From: Buxus sempervirens
Lineage: Eukaryota > Streptophyta > Magnoliopsida > Buxales > Buxaceae
Reading direction: 5' to 3'
Assembly (NCBI GenBank): GCA_947561395.2
Contig: OX387182.1
Coordinates: 36,263,949 to 36,327,948, forward strand
DNA length: 64,000 bases
In this document: positions 1-63,150 of the stretch, piece after piece
Position numbering within the stretch: the stretch's first letter is position 1
Layout of the letters: each line of letters opens with the position of its first letter
Notes under the pieces: model-generated
What the model was told of the DNA's origin: nothing
Database searches by the model: none
Seen by the model: the letters and a program-made list of their open reading frames with translations, nothing else
Position numbers and translations under genes: made by a program

Positions 1-552
1 AACCGACCCACTTTTACATAAAAATCACTTAAATTCAATTTGAAACCCAAAATAAAAATCAATTGAACTAACCAAAGCCCAAAGGGCCTCCCAGGCTTAG
101 ATGGAGGCCCACCAAGGGCATGCGGGCTTAACCAAGCCCACCAAGGGATCCGCAGGCTTTCCAATGGGGCCTGCCTGATCAGACTCAGATCATTTTAACC
201 AAAAAAGATAAAATCAAGTAAAGGGATCCACACCACTTTGGCGGTCCCGCCAGACTTAACCAAATTGAATGCTGGAATAGGAATTGAGTGAGCGAGAGAC
301 CAAAGTTGATTCAAACTAGGGAAACCTAAGGGACCCGTTACTCGACGGGGCAGACTGGGGTGTCTACGGACTTCCCCGGACCGTAACCAAGAACTTGCTT
401 AGAATCTCAAGCTGCAGACCAAGCCTTAATAGATAGAAATAGGCACACAGGTGTTTGCCTGTACCCCATCAGGCAGTGGCGACTCCAAACAATCCCGAGG
501 CACGCATCATTTTGCATGCGCCTCGTCGTGCGACCGAAATCAAGTGCGCACA
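1..552 (+). mobile_element. 3' part of a non-coding LTR element (family A), cut by the window start
   Basis: This stretch is closely similar to the last 500 bases of the element at 47190-50434 and to the ends of those at 41732-43568 and (inverted) 43772-45944. Shared landmarks are the block around 'GGGGTGTCTACGGACTTCC', the 'AATCTCAAGCTGCAGACC' block, and a conserved small hairpin TGCCTG-loop-CAGGCA near 447-475 followed by 'GTGGCGACTCC'. The copy ends in GCGCACA at 552, the same terminus as its relatives. The left end and the target duplication are outside the window. No coding capacity is visible. Confidence 0.75.
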
Positions 553-1539
553 CCTGTTCTTTATTCCCGTACCTTTCTTAGACTGGCGAGTCTTTCTCCT
601 AGGCTTGGAAAAGCTTATATCTCCAGGGATGTAAGACCCTGATTTTTGGTGAGTTATTTATTTATTTAGTTATTTATTTTGATATATAAACTGTGTTTAT
701 CAGGTGATTTTTTTGTGGTTTGAGGGCTTAGCCCATACTCGTATGTACAGGCGTTATATAACCGTTTTTCTGAAAAATTTTATTATTATTTTTATTAATA
801 AAATAAATATATATATATAGCTTGGGCACTTGTTAACATAAGTGGCCGGAACATGTAGGATTTTTCAGTGGGCCAGCGTGCATGGGATCAAGGAAATGGG
901 AGAGTGATCGAGCGGCGTATGTATCAAGGTAAGTATACTAAAAAGGGAAAGTAGGGTTTTGGGGTTTATGAGAATACGCGTACCATACTTACAAAAATGT
1001 TTTCGTTAGTCTGGATATCAGGAGAACTGAGCGATTTCGGCTGGAGTGGCGATTAGGACTCTGCTCGTGAAGAACAAGCATCACAAGGGCTAAGGGAAGA
1101 ATTTTGGAGTTGAACTTCAGTGGGTTATTTCTCTCTGCTCGAGAAGATTTGGTTGGATAGATTTTTCATTCGCGTGCGTGGCCGGAGTAGTGATCGGCCA
1201 AGGTTTTAGTATTCTGGAATAAACGCTTTCAGGTGAGTAGCACTGATTTACAACTGGGGTTTTGTGTTTTATGTTTTCGCGAGATTATTCTGATGCATGG
1301 TTGTAGTTTAAATGATCTCTGAGTTTTTTTTAGTTTTCCGGAACGACATGAAACAGAGTAGGAGACTGAGATTTATCTTGACATTAAATGTATTCAGATT
1401 AAATCCAAAAGTGATTGGGGAGTCTTCTGGGAGTATTAGGAGGGTATTGGAGCAATAACAGACCTAAACAAACCAGCCAGAATTGGAGATCTCGAATATA
1501 CAGAGAACTGAAAATCGCAGGGGGTATCCGCGAACCTGG

Positions 1540-1760
1540 CGCCCACTTGCGTTCACCTAGGAGGTAGGCGCCTAGTTAAGATTATTCTTACCGTCGAGCT
1601 CGCGCGAACCCGGCGCTCAGCTCGCGCGCACTCGAAAACCCGGCGCTCAGCTCGCGCCTATCTCGCGCTCACTTAGCGTCGAGTGAGCGCAAGCTACATT
1701 TTACCCTGTTTTTCTTACCGCCGACCGACGTTCACCTGGCGCCCACTTCAGGAAGTGAGC
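1540..1760 (+). repeat. GC-rich short-repeat block inside the solo LTR
   Basis: This is a locally GC- and CpG-rich island in otherwise AT-rich LTR sequence. It is built from repeated short motifs such as GGCGCTCAGCTCGCGC, GGCGCCCACTT and GTGAGCGCA. Comparable blocks with different motifs sit at a similar place in the other giant LTRs (about 31950-32190, 52650-52930, 36120-36280, 59500-59555). Confidence 0.6.
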
Positions 1761-2361
1761 GCATACCCTATTATACTTACTGAAATGGAAATCTGATTTA
1801 ACCAAGAGTAATTGGGTGTCTTAAGGGTTAAACCACTTCACTATTCACTTGTTTGGGAACCTTGGAATCTACTTTGCCTATGAAAATTATTAGAGGAAAA
1901 TTTAGTGAACTTCTTAAAAGCTTCCAAGTTGAGTTTAGGTTATTTATGAGTGATGTGCCGGATACCAAACCACTAAGAGTTACCAGTTACATTTACTCTG
2001 TTTTATACACTGTTTTGAATGAGGAGTTATTCTATTCTGGTTTCACTTGTTTGGAAACTTTAAATGTATTGTAAAGATTCCCTTGGTATGAATGAATTGA
2101 GTTTTGTTTCTAAATGGTATGTGTTACGGAAATGAGAAAATGCTGAAAGTACTTGAGGTACTGCTTAGTCCAGAGGGACAGGTGATGAACTGTGATGGGT
2201 TTTACATGATGTGGAATGAATGGTTTTACTTTGATATTGGAATTGAGATTATACGATGTTTTACTGTTTTGGTCTAGCTTGTCCTGGATCCAGATGTTTA
2301 AGCTTAGTAATGTGATGTTATTGTTGGTTGTTGGAATTGCATGGCCTTATGTGTTGCCACG

Positions 2362-2502
2362 ACCGGTGTAGAGCAGCTAGAAACCCTGAGTAGGCCTGGT
2401 TGTCAATGCAGAAACCCGGGGAGTAGGCCTGCATTGGATGACGAAACCCTGAGTAGGCCGTCATTTCAGAGTTCCGAAACCCTGAGTAGGCCGGAACTGT
2501 GT
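2362..2502 (+). repeat. Array of four hairpins with a common loop and differing stems
   Basis: Four units share the loop AAACCCTGAGTAGGC (one reads AAACCCGGGGAGTAGGC). Each is bracketed by its own self-complementary stem: CAGCTAG/CTGGTTG (pairs if two G-U wobbles are allowed), CAATGCAG/CTGCATTG, GATGACG/CGTCATT (one wobble) and AGTTCCG/CGGAACT. The stems differ between units but stay paired, which ordinary tandem duplication would not maintain. The array lies about 300 bases upstream of the acceptor-like module of the same LTR. Confidence 0.8.
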
Positions 2503-2781
2503 ACATGGAGGTGTGGAGTGTCTACTTGGCATGTTTAATTGATCAACTAAAAGATAGTCATGACATTGACCAATCGATGTGTTGCCGTACTTAACTGAGA
2601 TGTGATGTGTTTGATTAGAACAAGTTTTGATTTTAACTTGGGAATTGATGTTGGTTGTTTAACCGTATTGAGTGTTTGTCGATGCATAGTTTAAAATTGT
2701 GATCAACTATTTCTGCATGCATGTGCTACTCGCTGAGATATTCGTATCTCACTCCGTTGTTTTGTTTTGTTTGTTTTTCAG

Positions 2782-2858
2782 ATACTCGTGGTGAGGCGAT
2801 TACTGGGGTAGATCCTGCTGAGGCTTATAGGGAGGAGGATTACTATTACCTTCCTTAG
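2782..2858 (+). other. LTR-internal short terminal-exon-like reading frame
   Basis: A pyrimidine-rich tract ending TTTTTCAG (2774-2781) is followed by a short open frame that starts near Gly-Glu (GEAITG) and ends EEDYYYLP then TAG at 2856-2858. Homologous frames follow an equivalent CAG in two other LTRs: GEPRTGA...EDFYYP at 33351-33430 and GEPRAGA...EDYYHS at 51429-51508 (minus). The position directly after an acceptor-like CAG suggests a terminal exon of a spliced LTR transcript. This is inference; no upstream donor was identified. Confidence 0.5.
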
Positions 2859-3237
2859 ACTTGTAGGTTATCTTGTTCTGAATTCGAGAACTTTGAATAA
2901 TTGAGATGTGTTAAAGTTAATTGGGGTTGAACCATATGATTCTAGTTCAGTTTTAAATGTTACAATTTTGGATAAATGAAATTGTGCACTCTATCAGGTT
3001 ATAGATAGATGATTATCCAGCGATCATAATTGATAAGCGATCCTTGCCTAACCTCCGTGAGACGTGTTATATCTTTATTGAACAACACGGATCCGGGGTG
3101 TTACAAGGGATCTCCGTGATTGATAGGTGATGAGAAGCAGATAACTGAATTTCTCTAGTATTATCCTTCATTTTCCTATCAGTTGGGAAGAAGTTCGTTA
3201 AGAGTAAGTTGATGCCTTTATTATCCACTTGGCTCAC

Positions 3238-3576
3238 TGTAATGTCCCGGACCCATACCTAGCAAGATATTGTCCGCTCTGGGCCCACGGGCTGTCACGG
3301 ATTTGTTCTCAAGGGATAACACTAGAAAACTTCCCAGGGGTTACCCATCCTAGCAGTGCTCCCACCTGAGCAAGCTTAACTTTAGGGTTCCTGGGGGATT
3401 TAGTCCCGTGTTGCTCCTTAAAAGGCCTCTTGCTTAGTTGAGGGTCTTAAGACTACTTATAGCATCCCCGAGCGTTGTGGGATCCCAACCATATGCACAT
3501 CCTTGCCTGGTAGCTCACCCAGGTCTCTTACCCCGCCCACATCACAGCCGCCCACTCAGACAGCCAGGATGTCACA
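3238..3576 (-). mobile_element. Solo LTR of a Cassandra-type TRIM element with 5S rRNA-like sequence
   Basis: A 339-bp unit starting TGTAATGTCC and ending GGATGTCACA is flanked by an exact 5-bp duplication CTCAC (3233-3237 and 3577-3581). On the minus strand it contains a stretch strongly resembling the 3' half of plant 5S rRNA, including AGTTAAGC, CTAGGATGGGTAACC and CCTGGGAAGT. LTRs carrying a 5S-like domain define the Cassandra TRIM family. The element probably landed in the LINE remnant that continues to its right. Confidence 0.8.
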
Positions 3577-3726
3577 CTCACAGGCTTAAACTTAGCAGAA
3601 AAAGTGAACGCAGAACCACTATTGGATTGCAACTCATTTTGAAAAGCCTGATCTGTCCAGCTGGGCGTGGGTTGGGCTTCCAACATTTGCGATTCGCTAG
3701 AGAAGGAACTGTAAGGCTGCTCAACA

Positions 3727-4185
3727 TTACCACTTAGGGGCCCATGAACTATAAAAGGCGCCCCCCCTCAAGGATAGGGTAATATGTTTGGTCCGCAAAC
3801 TCGAATGAGTACTAGGTCCCAATGGAAACCCGTCTTGTTCATCCTCGATACCCGAGGGAGGTTCAGGGGACATGCTTTTCCTTCCAACATGACCGCCCTC
3901 CAGATTTGCCGACCGACGCCGGCGGCTACAGGGGATTTGATTGCAAGAAGAGTATTTGGGCGATTCCTCATTTAGCGACATGTTAAGCACTGCACCCGGT
4001 CGAATATTTTCATAGCAATTTAAGGTGTGGCCCAAGAAACCGCAGGAGAAACAGAAATCTGGCAGTCCTTCATGGGCGAAAGTGACCCAGATTTTCTCAC
4101 CATTTAGAGCTTCAACAAAGATACCAGACGGAATTGGCTTTGAACGTGAAAGGGCCCATTTGATACAGACATATTGGGATTCCAC
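3727..4185 (-). pseudogene. LINE ORF1 fragment with a zinc-knuckle-like motif
   Basis: This 152-codon open frame is the best preserved piece of the antisense LINE ORF1. It reads through a segment typical of plant LINE nucleic-acid-binding proteins (YVCIKWALSRSKPIPSG, then EKIWVTFAHEGLPDFC) into C-F-S-C-G-F-L-G-H-T-L-N-C. That resembles the zf-CCHC_4 knuckle, but the last spacer is three residues instead of the usual four, so it may not bind zinc. The upstream part of the protein continues in other frames toward 4560 and 5030, so the gene is broken. Function in life: RNA binding during LINE retrotransposition (family knowledge). Confidence 0.65.
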
Positions 4186-4607
4186 CGATACCGGAATTTC
4201 TATGTCCAGGGCTTTCCAAAATTAATTTCCGAGGTGACAGAGAATCTCCTCATCTACCAGGGATCTTGGGAGATCAAGCAATTGTGACCAAATTATCATC
4301 TTCGGAAGCGGCATGACATCCACTCGCTCCTGGGAATCCATGGTCTCTATGATGCAGAGTGAGTTGTTGACGAACCAAGGCCGTCCCTACATAATGATGT
4401 CAAGGTCCTTTTGGGATCCACATGCCACCAAGAATCGGCATTGGGTGAGCATATTGACAGATAGAATAGCCAGATTTTTCCAAACCCTTTCTATGAAGTT
4501 TCTCAGTGCATTTAGAGAAGAGGGCCCTCCCAAAATCTCCATCACTAGAAGATGACTCCATTTGACATGGAGTCGAGCTTTTTCGTTATCTAGTAGAGAA
4601 AAAACTT

Positions 4608-26238: not shown

Positions 26239-26643
26239 TTGCAATTAACATACGCCTTAGCATTTGAAAGATCACATATCACATTGGAAAACAATAAGAT
26301 TGCATATTTCACTGGAAAAAAAAAATAAATTTGGAAAATGAAAGCAAGAAATAATATGCTCTAAGATCTCAGATGCATAAGAAATCAGCATATCCAGAAA
26401 ATAAGCCTTGTGATTCCCTCACCATACCTTAAAGCAGAATCACTACAACAGGTAAGTCAAGTTTTTGAAATATCTGAACCCATTACTTCTTTTACATATA
26501 TCTTCCAATGATTAAAAAAATTAAATTATTAAAATTTTGTTCACGGAAACATTAATTAAGTTGTAACGCCCCGGATCTGAGTTACATAGGAAAAACTATC
26601 TCATTTCCGGAGGTAAATAAGTAACGCAGGATCGCAGTATCAG

Positions 26644-26677
26644 TGTAGCGCCCCAGATCCGGATCTGGGGCGCTACA
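26644..26677. repeat. Perfect 34-bp palindrome replacing the 5' LTR
   Basis: The sequence TGTAGCGCCCCAGATCC is followed directly by its exact reverse complement GGATCTGGGGCGCTACA. The right half is the normal 3' terminus of this LTR family (compare 33786-33802). The left half is the same terminus inverted. The normal 5' terminus TGTAAAACCCCG (as at 29742) is missing. Confidence 0.9.
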
Positions 26678-26681
26678 ATTG

Positions 26682-26693
26682 TGGTATCAGAGC
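26682..26693 (+). other. Primer-binding site, initiator tRNA-Met
   Basis: TGGTATCAGAGC lies four bases after the LTR-type terminus at 26677. It is complementary to the 3' end of plant initiator tRNA-Met, the usual minus-strand primer of plant Gypsy and Copia elements. Confidence 0.8.
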
Positions 26694-27420
26694 ATAAGAT
26701 CCAAATTAGGAATTAGAAGCCATCTTAGGTTGGGTTTTGGGATTGAGAGCACGATAACTAGAGCCTTTTGAGTTGTCTTTTGGATTTCTTTTCCAGCATT
26801 TTGATTAAGAAATTATTATTTTAAATCTTATATGATTGAGGTGTGATAAGTTAATTGTGTTTAGTTATACCATGGTCTATGACCTTCAAGCTGTCTTTAG
26901 GAATTTTTCCTTATTATGATTAAGCGATTATGATTATTATCTTATATGATTGATGTATGATAAGCCGATTATTTGATTATACTAAGGTCTAGGACCTTCA
27001 AGTGGTCCTTAGGAATTTTTCTTTCCTTATTGTGATTAGGTGATCATTATTATTATCTTATATGATTGATGTGTCATAAGCCAATTGTACTTGGTTGTAC
27101 TGAGGTAGTGTGAGGCATCGGCCAATGCTGAATATTTACCAAGTATCTAACCTTTTGCAATTGGGATTGTGTAATAGATATATTAGATAAGAATATGTGT
27201 AACGGTGAAGTTAGGTGCATGCATGTGGGTGTATATTGTTATGAAGTTAAATTAGGAGGAAACTCCTATGATAATTCCTCCCAACCTTCGTATAGCTGCA
27301 GATATATTGAAGGGATTGGTGGTGGTAGAGTCATGGTATTTTTCCTTTGAATCGTTTTTGCAATTTATAGTATAGGTGAATTCCTTGTTTTGATTTCAAT
27401 TATTAATATTTCAGTCAGTC

Positions 27421-28863
27421 ATGGAAGGGCGTCGGGGTAGACCCAATAGAGCTGCTGCTGCTGCTGCCTTTGTGCCAGCTCCTGAGCAGGTCGATATTCC
27501 AGCTGATGTTCCAGTGGATGCACCACCTGGGGCCCCAGCTCACACGGACCAAATGGATGATGTGTGGAGAGCTTTTGGGCGGGTTTTAGCCCTGTTCGAG
27601 CAACAGGCTGCTGTAAACCACCATTATGGGCAGAATTTGGATCATCTTAGAAATGAAGTTGGTCAAGGACCAATAGAAGATAGGTCTTCCAGGATCATGA
27701 AAGAGTTTAGGAAGATGTCCCCTCCTCCCTTCCATGGTCATCCCGATTCCATGGAGGCGGAGAGGTGGATGATGAGAATCGAGAAGGTACTCGAAGCCAT
27801 AAGATGTCCAGAAGAGGACAAAGTAAGATGTGCCGTCTTTATGCTTGAGGGAGAGGCTGAGCATTGGTGGAGGTCTCTACAACAGGAGCTGGTGGAGAGT
27901 GGTATTGAGGTTACATGGGGAGAATTTAAGAACCAGTTTGATCTCAAGTTCTTCCCTGAGGAAGTGAGGGCACAGAAAGAATTTGAATTTATGACCATAT
28001 CACAAGAGAATATGACGGTTGCACAATATGAAGCTAGGTTCTTCGAATTGTCTCGGTTTGCTCCACACCTTGTGGATACCGACAGAAAGAAGACAAATCA
28101 CTTTGTGAGAGGTCTTCATCCTGATCTTAAAGAGAGGGTGGTGGCCTTTATGGACACCAATTTTTATGAGTTGGTCCGTAGGGCTTCTACCATTGAGGGC
28201 TCCACTAGTAGGAGAGTGGAGGAGGATAGACCAAAAGTGCCACCCCTACCCCATGCAGACCCAAGGTCTAGGGAAGATAAGCGACAGAGGATTGGGTATG
28301 ATGAGCAGAGGAGATATAGAGGAGTAGGGCCATCCGAAGGGCGGAGTGGCATGCCAACTAATGATGTATGTCCTCGTTGCAACAGATTTCATGTACCTGG
28401 CCCATGTGCAGCTCCACCAGGAGTATGTTATCGTTGTGGACAATACGGGCATCGCATATCCCAGTGCCCATGTCAACAAGTTGATGGTGTGTGTCCCCAT
28501 TGCAGCAGATCTCATGTGCCTGGCCCCTGTGTAGCCCCACCAGGAGCCTGTTACCGCTGTGGACAATACGGGCATCTCATACCCCAGTGCCCATATCCCT
28601 CCACATATCAGACACTTCGAACCCGAAGGTCGCGACCTATTGCAGCTCGAAGGGCGCTGCCTATTGCAACGTTAGCCGCTCGATTTCAGAGACTAACGAC
28701 AGATCAAAGAGGACCAATCGGCCCAAGACAACAAGGTAGGCCAGCAGGCAGAGGTGGACCTCAGAGGCTACTACCAGTTGCTCCGCGACTACAACCACAG
28801 GCTAGAACCTTCGCTATGGTTGCCTATGAGGACCCTGAGCCCGAGTTTGACACCCAGTTTTAG
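27421..28863 (+). CDS. gag: Retrotransposon Gag (capsid/nucleocapsid), intact
   Basis: The frame is 480 codons with no break. After a low-complexity Ala/Pro-rich start (residues 10-45) comes the Retrotrans_gag domain (about 95-235; PPPFHGHPDSMEAERWM, AEHWWRSLQQEL, QYEARFFELSRFAPHLV). A charged linker follows, then two CCHC zinc knuckles with regular CX2CX4HX4C spacing at residues 336 and 377 (CYRCGQYGHRISQC and CYRCGQYGHLIPQC). Each is preceded by a C-P-x-C-x-R-x-H-V-P-G-P-C unit, so the knuckle region is a tandem duplication. The protein packages element RNA into virus-like particles. The start is the first ATG after the primer-binding site region and fits the family. No protease, RT or integrase follows. 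Its intactness next to decayed pol fits a gag-only element and a fairly recent insertion. Confidence 0.9.
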   Translation: MEGRRGRPNRAAAAAAFVPAPEQVDIPADVPVDAPPGAPAHTDQMDDVWRAFGRVLALFEQQAAVNHHYGQNLDHLRNEVGQGPIEDRSSRIMKEFRKMSPPPFHGHPDSMEAERWMMRIEKVLEAIRCPEEDKVRCAVFMLEGEAEHWWRSLQQELVESGIEVTWGEFKNQFDLKFFPEEVRAQKEFEFMTISQENMTVAQYEARFFELSRFAPHLVDTDRKKTNHFVRGLHPDLKERVVAFMDTNFYELVRRASTIEGSTSRRVEEDRPKVPPLPHADPRSREDKRQRIGYDEQRRYRGVGPSEGRSGMPTNDVCPRCNRFHVPGPCAAPPGVCYRCGQYGHRISQCPCQQVDGVCPHCSRSHVPGPCVAPPGACYRCGQYGHLIPQCPYPSTYQTLRTRRSRPIAARRALPIATLAARFQRLTTDQRGPIGPRQQGRPAGRGGPQRLLPVAPRLQPQARTFAMVAYEDPEPEFDTQF

Positions 28864-29741
28864 TGGGAGGTATTATTTTCAAGGGTGGACAATTTATTTT
28901 CTACCTCTATAATGTTGGAGCATCAGGATCTTTTTGACTATTTTGCTGGTGGTGTGTTAATTTGATATATTCTTATTGTAGCTCGTTTTGTTGGTACATA
29001 TCCCACCAGAAGGGGTACATTTTGTTGGTATATATCCCACCCATCGAATATGTAAATTGTAAATTTATTGCTATGGACTTACTTGATGTTGACTTATTAA
29101 AGATAAGGTTGAGCTCTCTTGTGTGGTTGACTATGCAACATGCTTAAGGTTTGATGAATGTGAATGAATAGTTCCACTTGGCAGTGACGGTGTAGAACTC
29201 ACTCGCCCGTGGTTGTCTGGCAGTGACGGTGTAGATCTCACTTGCCTTTTTGGTTCAATGCCAATGGATTTGGATGTACTTTGCTGTGATTTGGAGTATA
29301 TTGGAGTTTGTTTGATGTTATATGAATTACCCCAGTTATAGTAGAAGGCGTCACTTATAATTGCGATCAAACTGTTATCTATCTTTGTGATTTTGAAACA
29401 CCATGTACTGTTGATTCTTTAGCATATGTTGTGCATGCTAGTTTGATACCTTCTTTGATCGAGTTTATTTTGTGAGTGTGTAGCCACCAGGAACGACTAG
29501 TAGGGCCCCAAATGGTGTATAGATGTCATGATTAGATTACGCAAAGCAGAACTACATAGTGATTTGATATGTCAACTTCTAAGGAAGTTTTAGGTAATCC
29601 ATGAAATAGATTGGCTCTGAAGACCAATTGTCACTACATATAGGAGACCAAGGTAGAGGTAAAAGGGAGAAGTATCCTACTCTATTTGATGATCTAAAGT
29701 TGAAATTTCGAGGACGAAATTTATTTTGTAGGTGGGTAGAA
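28864..29741 (+). other. Element interior between gag and 3' LTR, no pol
   Basis: No pol domain is seen here in any frame. Two copies of a unit containing GCAGTGACGGTGTAGA and CTCACT (29178-29205 and 29221-29248) match the repeats at 32872-32985 in the LTR, so part of the interior derives from LTR-like sequence. The end has the polyprotein-end-like stretch and purine tract that precede the 3' LTR. Confidence 0.55.
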
Positions 29742-29989
29742 TGTAAAACCCCGTCCCGGATTATACCTTAATTATTAAGCTTAATTATCTAAAGTGTGAT
29801 TATTAGACTAATTAAGGAATTGTGTTATGAAGATGGGGTAAGTATGGATTATACCTAAAGAGTTAGGGGAATCGAATTGAAGTTGTTAAAGAAGAGCTTA
29901 GTTAGTGTTATGTCTTAGTTACAATTGGCTAAGATATCTTTTAATTAGATCTAGTGAATTGGAAATCAAATTCGGAAAAACTGGAGTTA

Positions 29990-31330
29990 AGTGTACCACA
30001 AATCATCTCCCGAGTATACTTAAAGTACCTTCTGAGTGTACCCAAGGTACCTCTCACATGTACCACAAGTAACTCCTAAGAGTACCTAAAGAACCTCCTA
30101 AGGGTACCCAAGGTACCCTCCCAAATACCACTAAAGTACCTCTTGTATTACCCAAGGTATTCCCATTGTATACCCAAAGTACATCAATGTACTACTTCAG
30201 GTACCATCTAAGTATACCTAAAGTATCCCCTAATTATCCCTAAGGTACCCTCGTATATTGCCCAAGGTACCTCTCAAGTGTACCTTAAGTATTTCCCAAG
30301 AATGCCCAAATAACCTCTTAAGTATACCCCAGGTACCCCACTTTTATACCCAAGGTACACCCAAGTATTACCCAAGTTACCACCCAAGTGTTACTTAAAG
30401 TACCCCCCAGTTATACCTAAGGTACCCCTGTGTTCATCTAAGGTATCCCCTTGTGTTTTGCCTAAGGTACCCCATTCGAATACCTAAAGTACCTCCTAAT
30501 TATACCTAAGGTACCTCATTTGTGTTGTCTAAGGTATCTCCTTATTTTAACTAAGGTACCCTACTATCTTACTTGAAGTACCCCTTGTTTAGCTAAGGTA
30601 CATTCCCTTATACAGCTAAAGGTACCCCCTTTTTATAACTAAAGTACCTCCAACATACCTAAGGTACATCCCCTATATTACTTAGGGTACACCCCTTGAA
30701 TTTCCTAGAGGTACTCCACTCATATAAGTAAGGTACCCCCACTGTTTTACCTAGGGTACACCCCCTATATAGCCAAAGTACCTCCTTTGTCTCACTAAAG
30801 TAACCCCTATATAAGTAAGGTAACCCTCCACTGTTTTCCCTAAGGTATAACCCCTTATATAGCTAAGGTACCCCCTCTTATAGCTAAGGTACACCCATTC
30901 TATAACTCAAGTAACCCTTTTAGATTATTAAGGTACACCCCTCATGTTACCAAGGGTACACCTCCTTATATTTCCAAAAGGTACCCCCTGTATAACTAAA
31001 GTACACCCCTCAATAATCAAGGTACCCCTCCTCAATATAACTGAGGTACACCCTCCTAAGCTTATTCAAAGTTTACTCCTTAGAATGACTAAGGTAAATC
31101 TCTTGAAACATCAAGGTACCCCCCTCAAATAACTAGAGTACCCCTCATATAACTGAGGTACCCTTCTGTGTTAACTGAGGTACACCTCCCAAGCATTCCT
31201 AAAGCATGCCTTTTGAAGTGGCTAAGGCAAACACCCCACTTAACACTAAGGTACCCCACTTAATACTAAGGTACCCCCACTCGAATGACACTAAGGTACC
31301 CCTGATATGCCTTAGGTACACCCTAGGGTT
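29990..31330 (+). repeat. GGTACC-rich minisatellite in the LTR
   Basis: Several dozen imperfect units of roughly 20-35 bp are built around (C/T)AAGGTACC(C), separated by short AT-rich spacers, with frequent KpnI sites. Unit length is irregular, so this is not a clean satellite. The homologous array in the antisense solo LTR is at 53565-54390. Confidence 0.8.
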
Positions 31331-32871
31331 TTAGTTGAACAAAAGCCTTGTTTAGGGGCAGATTTGAAAGACCCAAAACTTGGGCATATAAAAGGATGCC
31401 CTAATTTCTAATTAAGGGTTTGAAAACCCATTTCTCTTGTCTTGGACGTATAGAACAAGAGAGAGTGTGGGAGCTTACTTGAAGCTTCAAGAGGAAGAAG
31501 AAGAAGGAGAGAAAAGCTTGAAGGGAAGGTTGCTTCTCCATTAACAAGTAAGTAGCAAACCCTTTAAACAAAAATGAATTTGATGGATTTTCGTATCTCT
31601 CTTTCCTAGGGTTTTGATAAACTGGAGAATCACTTGCATGTAGGGTTTTGTTTCTAAAATTCATAGGGTTTGGTATATCTAATTATCTTGTTCAGTTTTC
31701 TATCGATTTGCCATGGATTTGCAACCTTTAATGATTATATTTCTGGTTAGGGTTTGAGATGGGTATATTGAATGATACTTTATATGTTGGATTCATGTTC
31801 ATGAGGGTTTTGTATGGATTCCTATGTTGGGAAGAGTTTTTGAGTATGTTGGGATGTTTTGGAATCATCACATTTGGTATTGAGAAGGTTGGATAGGGTT
31901 GGTACGAGTTTTGAGTTGAAAATAGTCAAAAATGGTAGAAAACCCGAGGTGGCGATTAATCCTGCAACTTGGCGATTAATCCTGAGCCAAGACCCCCAAA
32001 AATAAGGTTCTGTTAAAATAAATCGCGAAACAGGATTAATCGCCCAGGGCTAATCGCGACCTTAGCGCGCGAACGTTAAACCTTACCGCGCGCGCGCTGA
32101 ACCTGTTTTAAACCTGGGCGCGCGGACCTTTAGCCTTAACGCCCGAGCATTGAGCTAATCGCCTCTGGGCGATTAATCCACGACCTAATCGTGGACCCTG
32201 TTTCATGATTTGTTTAGCCTTTTTCTCTCAAACCCTTTCCCAACCAAGCCAAGGCTCTCGCATAGCACCTTTATTACATGAAAGACATTTAAGTAAATGT
32301 CCTGTGTATTTATTGCTCCATTTACTTAAGTCTTTACATGTAAATAAGGTTTTACCCCCCATTTGGAACCAATAAAAATACTCCCAGGGTCCAACTCCCA
32401 ACCAATAAAAAGTCAACTTTTCAGTTTGTGCCTAAATTTCCAGTTTTCCCGATTTTCAAAAAGGGGCCACTTTTTGAGTTTGATATCCAAATGAGTGATT
32501 CGGAAGCCCAGAAAATTCTGGATGATTTGTATACCCTCCAATAGACTACAACCAGAATTTGAGCCCCAAACTCCTTGTAAAATTGTTTAGAAAAATTCGA
32601 CACCGAAAAGTCAACGTTTTTATCCATACTTAGAATATTTTTGAGGTCCGAAACTTTTTGTCTCGGAATCAGCTGATTTTTGGTAGGGTGACTTTATTGG
32701 GGATCCTAAGATTATCCCACTTCTTAAATGCGTAATTCGTGGACCTTAAAAGGGGTATGTGTTTTACGGTGAATTGGCTTTGACTGTGAAGTGCTTGTTG
32801 GTTTGTTCTTACGCATTGGGAATATTAATTTGATTTGGTAAAGCTGTGATGAGCTTCTTCTATGGGATTTA

Positions 32872-32985
32872 AGTGACGGTGTAGATCTCACTTGGTCGTG
32901 GTTAGTTGGCAGTGACGGTGTAGATCTCACTTGCCCCTTTGTTGAATGCTAGTGACGGTGTAGATCTCACTTGGCCTAGATCAAA
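32872..32985 (+). repeat. Three hairpin repeats in the LTR
   Basis: Three copies of AGTGACGGTGTAGATCTCACTT are spaced about 48 bp apart. Each folds as AGTGA-loop-TCACT with flanking pairs that differ between copies (GGCA/TTGCC in the second). The same unit occurs twice at 29178-29248. Confidence 0.7.
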
Positions 32986-33350
32986 TGGTAGTGGATGGGG
33001 AATTCCACTTGGTTTGTGAATTTAGTACTATATCTTGGTTTGTGGGATGTGATATTGGTTCTAGTAACTGCTGATAAAGGTTTGTCCTACATCGTGAGCT
33101 CTACAGGTTTGACTTACATTATCAGTCCTACCAGGTTTGTTAGCTAATTTTTATGGGTTATATTATTAAGATGCTTGACTTGAGAATATGAATCGCATAA
33201 ACTGCCTCTACTCATGATGTTATATAAATTGCCTAAACTATTCCAATCATGATGTTATGTGAATTGTATTAACTGCTTCCATTCATGCATGTTTGCTACT
33301 TGCTGGGACTTTAAGTCTCACGCGTTTTGTTTTACCGGATTTGTTTTCAG

Positions 33351-33430
33351 ATCCGTTTGGTGAGCCACGTACTGGGGCAGCTATTGAGGGTGAGTCTGAG
33401 CGCAAGCCCGAGGACTTTTACTATCCGTAG
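33351..33430 (+). other. LTR-internal short terminal-exon-like reading frame
   Basis: After TTGTTTTCAG (CAG at 33348-33350) an open frame runs through GEPRTGAAIEGE to EDFYYP and TAG (33428-33430). It is homologous to the frames at 2782-2858 and at 51429-51508 (minus). Upstream are ATGCATG, TGCTACTTGCTG and the small hairpin GGGACT-TTA-AGTCTC. Confidence 0.5.
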
Positions 33431-34261
33431 TAGGGGTTCTCTTTATGTTATTGTATATAGTTCCTAGAAACTATCAATGGGAATGTAATTATTCTTTTTG
33501 GATTTGTAGGCGTGGGAGTTATCTTTAAATTATCATTCTTGTATCTGAATGCTCATGTGAGAGGCAGTGAGGGAGAGATCTTAGTTGCCTTTTGGGGTAT
33601 CTAAATGTTGTATTTTGGAGTTATTATACAGATGCCATTTTATTATATGGAAAATTTTAAATTCCATGCTTCTTTATCACTCTGATGATTACATTGTAAT
33701 TGCTCACATCAATTATGCTTATCAGGTTCTTTTGGGCCCATAAGTAGGTCTCGGGTACGGGTTGGTGCTGTGATAGGGCAGACCCGGATCTGGGGCGCTA
33801 CAATCAGAGTGAAGGAAAGACATGAATACCACAATAATTATAAAATCAGGGTGCGCTGCAAAACCCAAAACAAACAATATATATATAAAACTAAAACTCA
33901 CATAACCGAGTAATTACCTGCATACATTGATCTCTCCGAGCAGCTGAAAACAAAACAAAATAATGCGGAATGAGATACGAATATCTCAATAAGTAGCACA
34001 TGCATGCACAATACATGGCTCGAATAATGTCCCGGTAATGATGGCGATAATATGATTAATCCGATTAAGCTCACAATAATTCAGCAGACCAAGTTGTTAT
34101 ATTTAATGAACTTCAACAGATAAGTAAAATCGCAATGGTAATATCGAACGATCAAAACTAGACCTTAACAGTAACCAATTATCAGCATTGAAGAATAAAA
34201 CACACCCGAGGTCAATGTTATGCATGCACTTTAATTGAGTAATTCAACACACTAGAGCGAC

Positions 34262-34425
34262 ATCCAAGCCTCCTGGTACACAGTCCTGCCAACATAGGCT
34301 CGGTACTCTGAAATGACAGCCTACCCAGGAACTTGTCATCCAGTGTCGGCCTACGCCGGGTTTTGACACTGACAACCCGGCCTATCCAAGGATACGGGCT
34401 ACTCTACCCTGGTCATGGAAACACT
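34262..34425 (-). repeat. Hairpin array in the outer solo LTR
   Basis: On the minus strand, at least three units end their loop in TAGGC, as in the array at 2362-2502. Stems are AGCCCG/CGGGTT (one wobble), CAGTGTC/GACACTG and ATGACA/TGTCAT. A fourth unit is too altered to pair well. The stems differ from those of the array at 2.4 kb apart from one related stem (ATGAC). Confidence 0.65.
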
Positions 34426-35106
34426 CGCGGCTATGAAATTACAACAATAAAGCAACACATTACATTATGAAGCTTAGACTCTGGATCCAGGACAAGCTAG
34501 ACCAAAACAAAACACTCAACACATAAAACCAAGCTCTGGTAGCAAGGTATACCAACCTCTAGTATTACCATCAATAACACAAACCAAACTCATCACGGGT
34601 CACTCAGGACCAGAATGGTAATACCATGGAATTTCTGTTGGAAATCTAACCCAAACACCAAACCAAAACAGTGATATACTTCCTGACTCACATAAATACC
34701 TTTTCAAAAAAACTGCTCAGCACCTTGTAATGCGATAAAACTCAGGTTAAATGATTTCACAAGTTGGAAAACAATCAGTAAAACATGACTAAATAATATC
34801 ACTACCTCATGGAACAAGACAGAAACAAACTACCTATTGGCTCCTCAAATTGACCTTTAGAACTCATATTTCCTTCCAGTAATTTATGGAATGATCTCAA
34901 TGGTTTTGACCAACTTATAATACTTCTAACACATTAATCTAACTCCTAGAAAGTAGCTTGAAGAGTTAGAGTGGAGAAAAACAACTGAGAATGGTTAGCC
35001 GCACATCACCTGGTAACTGGGTGGGTGCGTTGACCTCGAGATAGTAGGCGGCACGGTCGGCACACCTACCAAATGAGCTACCGCCGAGTAAAATTAGTAG
35101 GCGGCA

Positions 35107-37657
35107 TGTAACGCCCCGGTTCTGGGTCAAAATTTTTTGAACCCGAGGTGTTATGAGAAGTAACAAAAGCAACTAAAATCCATATCAAATTAAAACCTTG
35201 ATTAATTACATCATCAGAGTTATATGCGGAAACATAAAATAATATTCACTAACAATTAATCTTTAAGCTTTACAATTTCCTTAAGCTCATGAATCTAGTC
35301 TACAACTAAACTGGCTAACCCCTTTTAAATACTAGCCCAATGCTTGTCGTCCTCGCCAAGATTACCTGAAAAATTGGGGAAAACTGGAGTGAGAATAAAT
35401 CTCAACAAGTAGCAAGGTGCATGCATGAAATCAATCCATGTTTATATAAAATAAGTCATGAGGTATGCGATTAAATCAGAACAACAAGTAGAAAAACGAT
35501 AATATAGAAATCATGGCAAACAGCATACCATCATGTAACATCACATAATGAAAAATAATCACAAACACCAAGAAGTAAACCAAATAACTAGTAACTAGCT
35601 TCCCACCGAGTACACGGATCGAGGAAGTATCCCGCCGAGTACACGGACCGAGGAAGTATCCCGCCGAGTACACGGACCGAGGATATACAAATAACCAAAT
35701 CCGCCCATGCGGAAACAATAAATCAAGCACCAACTTTGTCACACTAGTGACCCAAAAACCCACACAAGTGGAATCAAATATATGCTTTAAGATCACGGTT
35801 TCAATGGATAAAATAATCTAGGTATATGTAAAATCATTCGGAACTCAAAACATGTCCAGATAGACCAAAAACAGGTGTAGGAACTCTTAGAATCAAGTTT
35901 GGTTAAGAATAGAATCGTTTGGAACAATGGTATTCAGTAGAAGTGCCTCTTTGGCAAAATCTACCCAAAATATTTATAAAAATGAATTTTAACATCCACC
36001 AATGCAAACAATCTCCAAATACTCTAAACTTGATGGTACATAGGTTTAAAATGGATAAGAATAATTCTGTAGTGAAAAACTAGGCTGAAAGGCCAAATTT
36101 TCAAAATCAGACAGACAGGTCGCTCGAGTGGCAGTCGGGCGCTCGAACGGCCTTATATTTTAGGTTGTTTCAGGGTTGGTCGCTCGAGCAACTGTTCAGG
36201 CGACAGGTCAATCTGGGAAAATTGCTCTCGGGTTTTGAAAAACCATATAGGGCGCTCGAGCGACTGCTCAGGCGGCTCGATACGAAGAAAATCCGAATAT
36301 TTACGAAATTCAATAAAAATTCCAAAATTAAATATCCAATACATCAAATCCATTATAAATCATTCTAAAACACTTTATAAACATGTTAGAACATTTTAAC
36401 CAAAATAAAACTTCGTTTATAAACCAAATCATATCAAAACCAATCATATAACCATACTTTAATAGTTTTTGAGAAAACCTCAAACAAACACATAACACTT
36501 ATGAAAATATTTGTCTCAACGAACATGGTTTGTTTCTAAATCATCTCATAATATATCTAAATAATAAAACACGAAAATCATGCAATTCCTTCAGTTTTCT
36601 AGGTGTTTGCTATTTGCCTCATTACATGAACTAAGTCTGCCCAGAAATCTGCTCGCCTAGCCATTTTCTAAGCTTGATCGCACCACTTTAAACTCCTCCA
36701 AATCCAATCTCCACCGTTCAGATTGAAGCCCCTCATGAGTAGAACAAAATCCTAAACTTTTAGCCCATTCCAACGGTTGGATCTTCCTAATTCGTTGTTC
36801 GAAATTGGCTGATCGGCCATCTCTGCAACTCTTTTTTCTTTCTAAATCTCTCCTTTTCTCTTCTCTCTTCTTTCCCTTATTTTTCTCCAAGCCCAAGCAC
36901 GAATTTCCCTCTTCTTTCTCCTTATTTTTAACTTGCTAAAATCCCTAATCTTTCCCTAGACCTTCCCTTTTATAAGCTCACTTAATTAGAAGTCCCACTA
37001 GGTTTAGGAGACCTTCTAAATATGATTCCCACTCTTAATTGGAAACCTCCTTATCTTAATTTATTTTCGTACTACTTTAATTTCCTATTTTAAAATATTA
37101 CTAAAACACCGCAAAGCTCCTCTTATCCTCAATTTTAAGGCTCCTTATCAACTATAATCACCAATATACCATTTTTCCTACTTTTAGACCATAATTTGCT
37201 ATTTAAATTCAAACCTAACCCAAATTATGTCTAGTTAAATATTTCAAGTCTAATAATTATTTGCTTACTCAATATATTAATTTGGAAAATTGGAAAATGA
37301 CTAAAATACCCTTTCCTTGTAATTCCATACTTAACCTTTGAATCTTTTTCCAAAAATTCTCCTCTTTATTCCTTACATCAATCTTAACCATATAATGCAC
37401 TTAGATTAATACATATCTTCTCCAATCCTTTTTATTTAATTTACTCTCCCAATTTATCTAAATCAACCCTTCTCTTTCCTATTTAAATGAAGTCACTATT
37501 TAAATTCCTAATTACTCAAAATTATTGTTTATTTATTTAGTTACTAATATCTCTTTAGATCATAATATTATTCCTCAAATACCTAAATTAAATCTTAACT
37601 TCTCAATATTTAGGCTTATTTAATTTACTTTATTTTAGGAAAATCCAGGGTTTTACA
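35107..37657 (-). mobile_element. Solo giant LTR nested in the outer LTR, 2.55 kb
   Basis: The LTR runs from TGTAACGCCCCGGTTCTGGG to CCAGGGTTTTACA, flanked by CGGCA (35102-35106) and CGGTA (37658-37662), a 5-bp duplication with one change. On the minus strand it starts TGTAAAACCC and ends GGGGCGTTACA. It contains three direct 33-bp repeats with GCCGAGTACACGGACCGAGG (35600-35690), a GCTCGAG-rich GC block (36120-36280) and an acceptor-like CAG (35366-35368, minus) followed by NLGEDDKHWASI and a stop. Confidence 0.8.
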
Positions 37658-38681
37658 CGGTAGCTCAGCGCATACTTGTTATTTCAACGTCTCTGTTAGC
37701 TGTAGTTCGACACGACTGACCGGAAATTTAGCTTTTATGAGAACAAAATCAAACTCCTAACACCTCAAATAGACTTACACCACCAATTTGAAATTAATCT
37801 ACCTAGGTTCATGCTCCGAGTTAACCATTTGATCACAAAAACACCTCACAACGAAATTCAAGGTTCGCAATACCTAACTCAGATTATAATCATGCAATTG
37901 GTTGCAAAGCTACGAATAAATCCAATGCTACTTACAGATTTTGAAGCAACCCTGAGACAAGAATCTCTTTGATTCCTCAACGAGTTCTCAGATATTTGCC
38001 TCCAGGATGGAATTCACGAATAATCTCTGAGATTCCAATTTCAGGTCAAATCTCACTAGATCTGCATCCCTTTGATAGGATTTAACTGAATCAAACCTAA
38101 TTAACTAAACTTTCCTGAGATTCGCACTTATTTGCTGAGAATTGCAGCTCTCAATTAGATCAAAGTGCTGCCACCAAAAGCTCCTCAACCACTCTCGAAC
38201 AATAATCAAACAACCACCAATTGAGCTCTCTGATCACTAGAAAATCTCCAAATCCTAGCTCACCTCTTCCTCTCTCTCCGATCTCAACAAAACCAAACAA
38301 TAAGCTGAACTGAGCCGCCTATTTATAGGCTTCGACGGCTCTCAACCATCTCATGCTTTGCTGTATGCTCACCCACAAAATTCTTCTACGCTATCACTTA
38401 ATTATCCTTTGATTAGACCCTTGCCTTTCTAACAATTAATCTATCCAGCACCCAAGGCAACATAATAATTCTCAACATATTATTATCTTTTATTCAGCTA
38501 AATTTTATAACCATCACTTGTTTTTAATTAAATCTATTCTCATTTAATTTCTAGAATTCCACAATCACCCTTGCCTAACTATTATCTACAATATTCACAT
38601 AATATTCTTATTAAAATTATCAATAAATCTTTAAATTAACATTAAACAAAAATCGGGGTTTTACATAAGTATAGAACTAAC

Positions 38682-52145: not shown

Positions 52146-53564
52146 CATAAAAATACAAAATCAATTTAAACGAGTACCATAAAATCCTCAAAATCCGTTT
52201 TGGATGAGTAGGATAGTCTTAGGATTCCTAATAAGGCTACCCTACCAAAAATCAATGAATTTTCTGAGACAAAAAGTTTTGGACCTAAAAAATATTCTAA
52301 GTCTGGTTAAAAACGTTGACTAACGTTGACTTTTCTAATTTTTCTACACAAAACCACAAGGAATTTCGGGCTCAATTTCTAGTTGTAGTCTAATGAGGGG
52401 TAAAAAATCTTCTGGAATTTTATGGGCTTTTGAATCACTCATTTGGGTATCAAACTCAAAAAATGGCTTTTGATGAAAATCGGGAAAACTGGAAATTTAG
52501 GCATGAACTGGAAAGTTGACTTTTTATTGGTTGGGAATTGGGCCTTGGGAGTATTTTTATTGGTCCCAAATGGGGGGTAAAACCTTATTTAAATGTCTTT
52601 CATGTAATAAGGGTTAAGGAAGAAAAGGATCAAGAACTTTCAAAACAGCACTCACGATTAGTCTTTAGATTAATCGCCCAGGGGTGATTTGCCTTGACGC
52701 TCACACGTTGAGGATGGACGTTCGTGAGTCCAGGCCAAAACAAAGCCAACGTGCGCGCGTCCCTCATGGACGTTCGCAAGCCCCAGGTTTCAAACAGGGC
52801 CGACGTGCACACGTCCTCTTGGACGTTTGCACGTCCATCCTCACGATTAATTGCCCAGACTAATCCTGATTCACGATTAGAATAACAGAGACTGATTTTT
52901 AGGGGTTTTGGCTCAGGATTAATCGCTAGGTTGGGTTTTTGAAATATTTTGGCTGTTTTCAACCCAAAACTCATATAAATCATCTCCAACCTCTCCAACA
53001 TCAAATGGAATGATCATAAAACATCCGAACTTACTTAAAAACACTTTCTAAGACAGATAATCATCCCCAAATCCGCATGAACACAAATCCAACCCATGAA
53101 ACATCATTCAAAATACCAAACTCAAACCCTAATCTAAAATATAATCAATAGAGGTTGCAAATCCATGGCAAATAAATAGAAAACTAAACAAGATTGTTTT
53201 ACAACCAAAACCCTACGAATTTTAAAAGCAAAAACCAGCGTGCAAGATCATTTCTTCAAATAAATCAAACTTTAGAGAGAGAAAATACGAATTTTGTAAT
53301 ACATTTTGTTTTGAAGGGTTTGCTACTTATTAATGGAGATGCACAATTCCTCTTCAAGTTCTCCTCTCCTTCTTCTTCTCCTTCCTCTTGAAGTTTTCTA
53401 GCAAGCTTCTACAACTTCCTCTCTTGTTCTATACGTCCAAGACAAAAGGAATGGTTCTCAAAACACTTAGAATAGAAATTAGAGCATCCTTTTATATGCC
53501 TAACTTTTGGTCTTTCAAATCTACCCCTAAACAGAGCTTCTATTCAACTAAAACCCTTAGGGTG

Positions 53565-54390
53565 TACCTAAGGTATGCCAGGGGGTACCTTAGTGTTATT
53601 TGAGGGGGGTACCTTGGTGTTAAGTGAGGGGTTCTTAGTGTTAAGTCGGGGTACCTTGGTGTTTCAAGGGTTTTTCCTTAACTATTTCAAGGGGTATACT
53701 TTAGGGATGCTTGGGGATACCTTAGTTATACAAGAAGGGGGTACCTTAGTTGTAGGAGGGGTTACCCATTTGTTATACAAGAAGGGGGTACCTTAGTTAT
53801 AGAAGCGGGTATCTTAGTTATACAAGGGGGTACCTTACTTATATAAGGGGTACTTTGGTTATACAAAAGGGGTACCTTATTTATATAAGGGGGTACTTTA
53901 GTTATACAAAGGGGGTACTTTAGCTATATAAAGGGGTGTACCTTAGGTAAAATAAGGGGATAATTTAGGTAGTACTTGGGTGGTACCTTGGATAATGCAT
54001 GTGGGTACTTTGGGTAATGCATGGGTGTACCCTAGGCATACTTGGGTGGTACCGTGGGTAATAATTTGGTGTACTCTAGGTATACTTGGCTGGTACCTTG
54101 AGTAGTACATGGATGTACTTTGGGTATACAATGGGGGTACCTTGGGTAATACAAGAGGTATTTTAGTCGTATTTAGGAGGGTACCTTGGGTATACTTGAG
54201 AGTTACTTTAGGTGTTCTTAGGGGATACTTTAGGTACATTTGAGAGGTACCTTGGGCACTCTTAGGAGGTTCTTTAGGTACTCTTAGGAGTTACTTAAGG
54301 TACATGTGAGAGGTACCTTGGGTACACTTGGATGGAAATTTGGGTACACTTGGAAGTTACTTTAAGTATACTTGGGAGATACTTTGTGGT
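53565..54390 (-). repeat. GGTACC-rich minisatellite in the antisense solo LTR
   Basis: This is the counterpart of the array at 29990-31330, with units around GGGGTACCTTAGTTATA of roughly 25-30 bp. It is shorter (about 0.8 kb against 1.3 kb), which explains most of the length difference between the two LTR copies. Confidence 0.8.
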
Positions 54391-54659
54391 ACACTTAACT
54401 CTAATTTTTCAGAATTTGATTTTCAATTCACTAGATCTAATTGAAAGATACTTTGGCCAATTGTAATTAAGACATAATACTAACTAAGCTTACCTTAATA
54501 ACTTAAATAAAGTTCGATTTGATTTCTCTAAATCCTCAAGTATAATCCGGCCACATTTACATCATCTTCATAACACAAGTACTTAATTAGTCTAATAATC
54601 CCATTTTAGATAATTAAACTAAATAATTAAGATATAATCCGGGTCAGGGTTTTACACAA

Positions 54660-62494: not shown

Positions 62495-63150
62495 GCCATG
62501 GTGGGACTTGTAACCAGGTATGGTGGGACTTGTAACTAGGTATGGTGGGACTTGTAACCGGGCATGGTGGGACTTGTAACTAGATTTGTAACGGGGCATA
62601 GTGGAACTTGTAACGGGGCATGGTGGGAGTTGTAACTAGGCATGGTAGGACTTGTAACGGGGCATGGTGGGATTTGTAACCAAGCATGGTGGGACTTGTA
62701 ACGGGGCATGGTGGGACTTGTAACAGGCATGGGGGGACTTGTAACCAGACATGGTAGGACTTGTAACGGGGCATGGTGGGACTTGTAACCGAGCATGGTT
62801 GGACTTCTAACGGGGCATAGTGGGACTTATAACCATGCATGGTAGGACTTATAATAGGCATGGTGGGATTGTAACCAGGGATGGTGGGAATTGTAACCAG
62901 GCATGGTGGAACTTGTAACAGGCATAGTGGGACTTGTAACCAGACATGGTAGGACTTGTAACGGGGCATGGTGGGACTTGTAACCAGGCATGGTAGGACT
63001 TGTAATCAAGCATGGTGGGACTTGTACTTGTAACGGGGCATGGTGGGACTTGTAACCATGCATGGTAGGACTTGTAACAGGTATGGTGGGACTTGTAACA
63101 AGGTATGGTAGGACTTGTAACGGGGCATGGTGGGACTTGTAACCAGGCAT
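62495..63150. repeat. Minisatellite, 22-23 bp unit
   Basis: About 28-30 imperfect tandem copies of a unit reading GGCATGGTGGGACTTGTAAC plus a variable CAG/GG/TAG end. Two unit types (…AACCAG and …AACGGG) alternate over parts of the array, suggesting a higher-order dimer of about 45 bp. Long minus-strand frames across it are products of the repeat and not genes. Confidence 0.85.

Follow-up and report, generated by a model that had tools for sequence, protein, structure and literature searches.

The retroviral packaging signal (Psi) follows the splice donor within the 5′ leader, and only unspliced RNA carries it. The hairpin array described here resembles Psi in comprising several hairpins with exposed loops, possibly following a splice donor; it differs in lying within the LTR of a Ty3/gypsy-type element, with its four hairpins in one junction, and binding by Gag is only hypothetical here. 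Among the retroviral export elements, the CTE has two alike loops. As a class (CTE/RTE), these elements are structured RNAs that act on intron-containing RNA (PMC4829213, excerpt), as the array may do.

In the plants, the Caulimovirus leader (CaMV) offers a case of reverse-transcribing RNA with a structured leader, a splice donor and a packaging signal (PMC5902531, excerpt). The structure there is one large leader stem-loop, in contrast to the LTR array of small hairpins found here. According to excerpts of PMC12786077, plant LTR elements are generally without introns, EVADE and Ogre, with functional introns, being exceptions, and it is unclear whether CAR-like export motifs are present in plant LTR elements; at the present locus the intron is putative and lies within the LTR. 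The plant retrozymes are non-autonomous retrotransposons with hammerhead ribozymes (PMC4918200, excerpt), whereas no ribozyme family match was found in window positions 1-4500. In one survey, LTR profile models for the plant Metaviridae could not be built because LTR length was too variable (PMC3601003, excerpt). Our impression from literature searches is that little is known of the cis-acting signals in the RNA of plant LTR retrotransposons, and neither LTR introns nor hairpin arrays of this kind were seen described among the matches listed from the open-licence literature.

The window, i.e. the whole stretch of 64,000 nucleotides from Buxus sempervirens that was analysed, contains at positions 2365-2511 of the forward strand four hairpins with stems of 7-8 bp, together with an outer closing stem, GTGTA/TACAT. 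The relevant features are as follows.

630..3105, forward strand: solo LTR of a Ty3/gypsy-type retrotransposon, with ends TGTAAGACC...GGGGTGTTACA and a target duplication
2365..2511, forward strand: whole array, in which the closing stem and four hairpins form a five-way junction
2366..2370, forward strand: 5′ arm of the closing stem, GTGTA, by the pairs of alignment A2 (see below)
2502..2506, forward strand: 3′ arm of the closing stem, TACAT, by the same pairs
2374..2402, forward strand: hairpin H1, CAGCTAG/CTGGTTG, 7/7 pairs, two of them G-U
2404..2436, forward strand: hairpin H2, CAATGCAG/CTGCATTG, 8/8 pairs
2437..2465, forward strand: hairpin H3, GATGACG/CGTCATT, 7/7 pairs, one of them G-U
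2470..2498, forward strand: hairpin H4, AGTTCCG/CGGAACT, 7/7 pairs
34269..34410, reverse strand: homologous array of type C in an older truncated LTR; this place (L172) is also in the alignment of the covariance model

A sequence-only reading of this DNA had described four units with a shared loop and self-complementary stems, two of them with G-U wobble. The four stems do indeed pair throughout (7/7, 8/8, 7/7 and 7/7), and the wobble pairs are found in H1 (two) and H3 (one). The shared loop held for three of the four units, in which the 15-nt sequence AAACCCTGAGTAGGC is exact; H2 carries a 17-nt variant, AAACCCGGGGAGTAGGC. Near-identical loops, AAACCC-N-GAGUAGGC, are present on all four hairpins of the window's family. 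When random 7-nt arm pairs were drawn with the base composition of the array, 7/7 pairing occurred in 156 of 200000 (7.8e-4), as against four of four array units, and of the 24 possible pairings between 5′ and 3′ arms, the actual arrangement gave 28/28 pairs and the next best 23. It is apparent that the pairing of the four units is not due to chance.

For the window array the MFE structure is the cloverleaf fold and the centroid differs; for another copy, L144, the MFE and the centroid are both cloverleaf. The covariance model scored 158.4 bits (E 7.3e-43) at 2365-2511, a place (L142) that is itself in the model's alignment. A hairpin-cluster scan of the window chained three of the array hairpins only when the minus strand was read, and chains of three were obtained in 5 of 10 block-shuffled windows; one unrelated chain was observed, at 28116-28214 on the forward strand. 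An Rfam scan of window positions 1-4500, with E values up to 1, gave no match in the array and two outside it, both below the gathering score. A tRNA-like element was considered and rejected (ARAGORN, 0 genes in 600-3200). The same applies to a miRNA or small-RNA precursor, one of the options raised in the sequence-only reading: such a precursor needs a long near-perfect stem and the array stems are only 7-8 bp, so this option is unlikely.

The array had been placed inside an LTR, and this was borne out: the solo LTR at 630-3105 (TGTAAG...TTACA) has an AGGGA target duplication on each side, at 625-629 and 3106-3110. In three of the 30 family-A loci (L146, L162 and L169) a primer-binding-site-like sequence, TGGTATCAGAG, which we take to be for iMet primer binding, begins 4 nt after the LTR. 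An open frame downstream at L169 matches retrotransposon gag (Pfam Retrotrans_gag, 1.2e-19; Ty3_capsid, 5.1e-8). The LTR, target duplication, primer binding site and gag identify the host element as Ty3/gypsy-type; it belongs, we suspect, to the Tekay/Del chromovirus lineage.

A related array had also been reported within an LTR at 26562-38665. The array is present, at 34269-34410 on the reverse strand, in a truncated LTR of the older family; no LTR pair at 26562/38665 was seen on self-comparison of the window in pieces of at least 120 nt. This array matches the window array unit by unit, with different H1 and H2 stems, and its own MFE structure is a different fold.

Three locus searches were performed in the species' own genome (676.5 Mb), with 30 loci kept from each; the candidates scored were 40 of 1067 for type A, 40 of 870 for type C and 40 of 2742 for B5/B3. 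Type A is a young family and type C an older one, and B5 and B3 derive from LTRs mostly with two clusters. A pattern fixing both ends of the H1-H3 region had 3824 matches in the genome, compared with one for the reversed pattern. The four sequence types share one architecture and have different stems. In type B3, H1 is longer by one base pair, with both partners present, and the H4 stem is also different; in L145, the inner H4 stem of the second cluster is TATCCG/CGGATA. Second clusters, which lie outside the model's alignment, matched the covariance model at 86.7-110.5 bits.

Variation between types is seen in the loops of H1, H3 and H4 (up to 6/15 positions in H3). The H2 loop showed 0/15 differences in six type comparisons, after exclusion of three columns with gaps or insertions, and is constant except for a 2-nt insertion in one type; the H2 stem differs at up to 6/16 positions. 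Since the H1 and H4 loops vary between types, loop constancy characterises H2 and the window's family and does not extend to all units.

Two or more arrays, some with different stems, lie close together at L145, L160 and L156/L202. The clusters at L203, L204, L207, L223, L226 and L248 are shorter by approximately one unit, apparently through loop-to-loop deletion. Beyond the species, GGTCTAGCTTGTCCTGG was found at five loci in viral contigs and a 14-base pattern in at least 117 stretches of genome contigs; both sets look unrelated, as blastn of the LTR against all 122 listed loci (5 + 117) gave no match at E 0.01. Two more searches of viral contigs returned 19 loci and 0 loci.

For the analysis of covariation, anchor searches yielded 141 clusters, including two chance matches (L214-2460 and L149+356). 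Removal of one chance match, of six clusters shorter than 125 nt and of duplicates left 101, and removal of L149+356 left the 100 distinct clusters of alignment A1, which covers 15 pairs of H2 and H3. Alignment A2 holds 67 of these 100 and covers 30 pairs, from the closing stem, H1-H3 and the outer part of H4. The 28 second clusters were left out of A2 because their H1, with its extra pair, does not align, as were L202, L145, L243, L247 and L250, and the inner pairs of H4 were not counted because they have no alignment between types.

In A1, 95.5% of the cells are paired and 111 are double-change cells, compared with a shuffle mean of 46.4 (0/500 shuffles); the corresponding values for A2 are 94.8% and 143, compared with 55.4 (0/500). 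When the partner was slid by one to three columns, at most 37.4% of the cells paired in A2 and at most 51.6% in A1. These shuffle and slide controls are not corrected for the relatedness of the copies, which represent few lineages of one genome, and neither the number of pairs with a double change (seven in A1, eight in A2) nor the numbers of pair types exceeded the shuffles. RNAalifold, run on A2 with no structure supplied, predicted the closing stem and four hairpins.

Individual pairs gave the following counts. Of the 67 A2 rows, closing-stem pair 3/144 is U-A in 38, G-C in 27 and G-U in 2, and the outermost closing pair, 2/145, is unpaired in 29. H1 pair 15/34 is C-G in 41 of the 67, A-U in 14, U-G in 6 and other in 6; at 12/37, G-U is the commonest state (40/67). 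The 100 rows of A1 gave, for H2, A-U 71, G-C 23, G-U 4 and other 2 at pair 44/73; C-G 51, U-A 32, U-G 9 and other 8 at 47/70; and C-G 54, A-U 19, U-G 15 and other 12 at 48/69. H3 pair 83/99 is G-C in 53, A-U in 29, G-U in 11, other in 6 and a gap in 1, and pair 76/105 is G-U in all 100. The outer three pairs of H4, the only ones scored there, are paired in 98.5% of A2 cells, with no double change.

When the majority states of the four types were compared at the 15 pairs of H2 and H3, five pairs differed; all five are still paired, four through a double change. A lack of covariation across copies, or pairing in this copy alone, had been set beforehand as grounds for refuting the reading; neither was observed in these comparisons, which are not weighted by lineage: double changes exceed the shuffles in A1 and A2, and the stems pair in many copies.

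Genome-wide pair counts, which are exact pattern matches and not independent events, were obtained for two H2 pairs. Pair 44/73 was A-U in 4756 matches, G-U in 645, G-C in 196 and A-C in 31, the last compared with 193 expected under independence. The effect was weaker at pair 47/70 (U-A 127, U-G 479, C-A 205), where U-A compares with about 36 expected, the C-G figure used being an upper bound. That G-U outnumbers A-C suggests sense-strand RNA, since both are mismatches in DNA.

The sequence-only reading had left two possibilities, selection on an RNA fold or the pairwise rewriting of stems by some mechanism, and this framing is supported; the persistent G-U pairs and the G-U excess over A-C favour selection on the sense RNA. 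Hairpins are known sites of template-switch events, and if one arm is copied from the other in the course of replication or reverse transcription (quasi-palindrome correction), double changes could arise without RNA selection. Misaligned copying at loops does seem to occur, as 6 of the 141 clusters, judged by eye, have the look of a loop-to-loop deletion; these join the arms of two different units, so recombination at loops tends to break the design and not to make it. Moreover, template switching should erase wobble, yet G-U is retained in 100/100 rows at 76/105 and 40/67 at 12/37, and outnumbers A-C by 645 to 31 at 44/73, and the occurrence of A-U, G-U and G-C arrays at one pair fits stepwise change via wobble. 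This explanation is accordingly considered improbable. It is very improbable that the matched stems reflect only chance descent from a few founder lineages, with no selection: the independent types are few, the shuffles ignore relatedness and mutations within types look neutral, but all five of the differing H2/H3 majority pairs still pair, four of them through changes on both sides, covariation is also seen in the closing stem, and the extra H1 pair of the second clusters has both partners. A protein site in the DNA, with the pairing incidental or a DNA cruciform, is scarcely credible. The AAACCCT motif, which we assume to be telobox-like, is present in three of the four window loops, but AAACCCG or AAACCCA replaces it in many loops of the other types, and the stem covariation and the unequal G-U and A-C counts at 44/73 (less strongly at 47/70) point to RNA of one strand. 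Selection on the RNA fold of the array is very probable.

Observations standing against selection were also made. The folding energies of the arrays are mostly ordinary, with z values of -1.01 for the window array, -0.79 for the copy at 34269-34410, and -1.32, -2.76, -1.57, -0.34, -0.37 and -2.21 for six further copies; of these six, L144 and L204 alone give the complete cloverleaf as their MFE structure. Within types, changes at G-C pairs from C to T, giving G-U, numbered 103 and those from G to A, giving A-C, 83, counts that do not differ (p 0.16); of all single changes within types, 125 keep pairing and 103 break it. As pair-keeping and pair-breaking transitions do not differ in this test, the copies look like decaying fossils. 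Hyperconservation of the array (0.999) was considered and rejected: for 20 of 39 copies chosen by their flanks, the mean identity of the array (25-nt steps) was 0.97-0.99, not above the 0.96-1.00 of its surroundings, and the higher value was inflated because those copies had been picked by array match. We read these results as constraint that would have acted while the lineages were active, followed by neutral decay of the insertions.

Two further features concern a putative intron of the LTR.

1233..2781, forward strand: putative intron holding the array, with donor AG/GTGAGTAGC and acceptor TTTTTCAG
2734..2751, forward strand: hairpin TGAGATATTCGTATCTCA, directly upstream of the acceptor pyrimidine tract; it recurs in two families

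Of the 30 loci of each family, 24 in family A and 11 in family C have a donor-like site (AG/GTRAGTAGC) upstream of the array, compared with 0/60 for the reversed motif, and an acceptor-like site accompanied by a hairpin is found downstream in 30 and 20 of these loci, respectively; the reversed control covers the donor alone, and the loci were picked by array similarity. In the 32 loci with both sites, the distance between them ranged from 1112 to 1962 (median 1582). Positions 1231-2780 of the window contain 42 ATGs. With a donor-like site before it and an acceptor-like site after it, the array may be restricted to unspliced RNA, and given a TATA-like stretch near 806-819 in the window sequence, it would fall in the transcribed leader.

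The fold is well supported, and its function we infer. While the lineages were active, selection would have kept the RNA fold, the loops presumably being the recognised part. If the intron is real, the array would be confined to unspliced full-length RNA and, on the model of retroviral elements for export and packaging, could be a mark for genomic RNA; on that RNA it might, more speculatively, serve nuclear export and/or packaging or dimerisation through contacts of the repeated loop. The proposal as a whole, a cis-acting RNA fold of the LTR that is under selection and acts on unspliced genomic RNA, appears to us evenly balanced, and the role on unspliced genomic RNA is put forward tentatively. 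Its most specific form, in which an LTR intron and an intronic four-hairpin export or packaging signal mark unspliced RNA only, with the repeated loop as putative binding site, is rather unlikely. To the packaging, dimerisation and splicing control proposed earlier, we would add the export of unspliced RNA. Of these, control of LTR-intron splicing by the fold, which would hide splice sites or draw them together instead of acting on unspliced RNA, is an unlikely alternative: 270 nt separate the end of the array from an acceptor-like site that carries a hairpin of its own, and both splice-site-like motifs recur, but the array starts approximately 1.1 kb past the donor-like motif, and this model offers no obvious reason for a repeated loop.

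In that most specific form of the proposal, a plant Ty3/gypsy-type element would split translated from genomic RNA in the manner of a retrovirus. The array copies allow a test of whether plants separate splicing from packaging or export. Occurring naturally in their thousands, with stems that are compensated, they are also a ready target for defining the RNA folds that plant retrotransposons require.

Other repeats were observed in the window. A shorter form of the acceptor hairpin, TGAGATTTATTCTCA, precedes a similar pyrimidine tract near 35400, in a different LTR on the minus strand, and a 29-nt tandem repeat (2.9 copies, 96% matches) is found at 35601-35683 in another LTR, approximately 235 nt before its acceptor-like site. 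A 116-nt tandem repeat (2.5 copies) at 26798-27086 is situated upstream of a gag reading frame, 27394-28863. The GGTACC-rich tandem arrays at 29992-31322 and 53559-54656, with units of approximately 22 nt, lie in two inverted copies of one repeat, and a 22-nt tandem array of 25.6 copies occupies 62586-63150.
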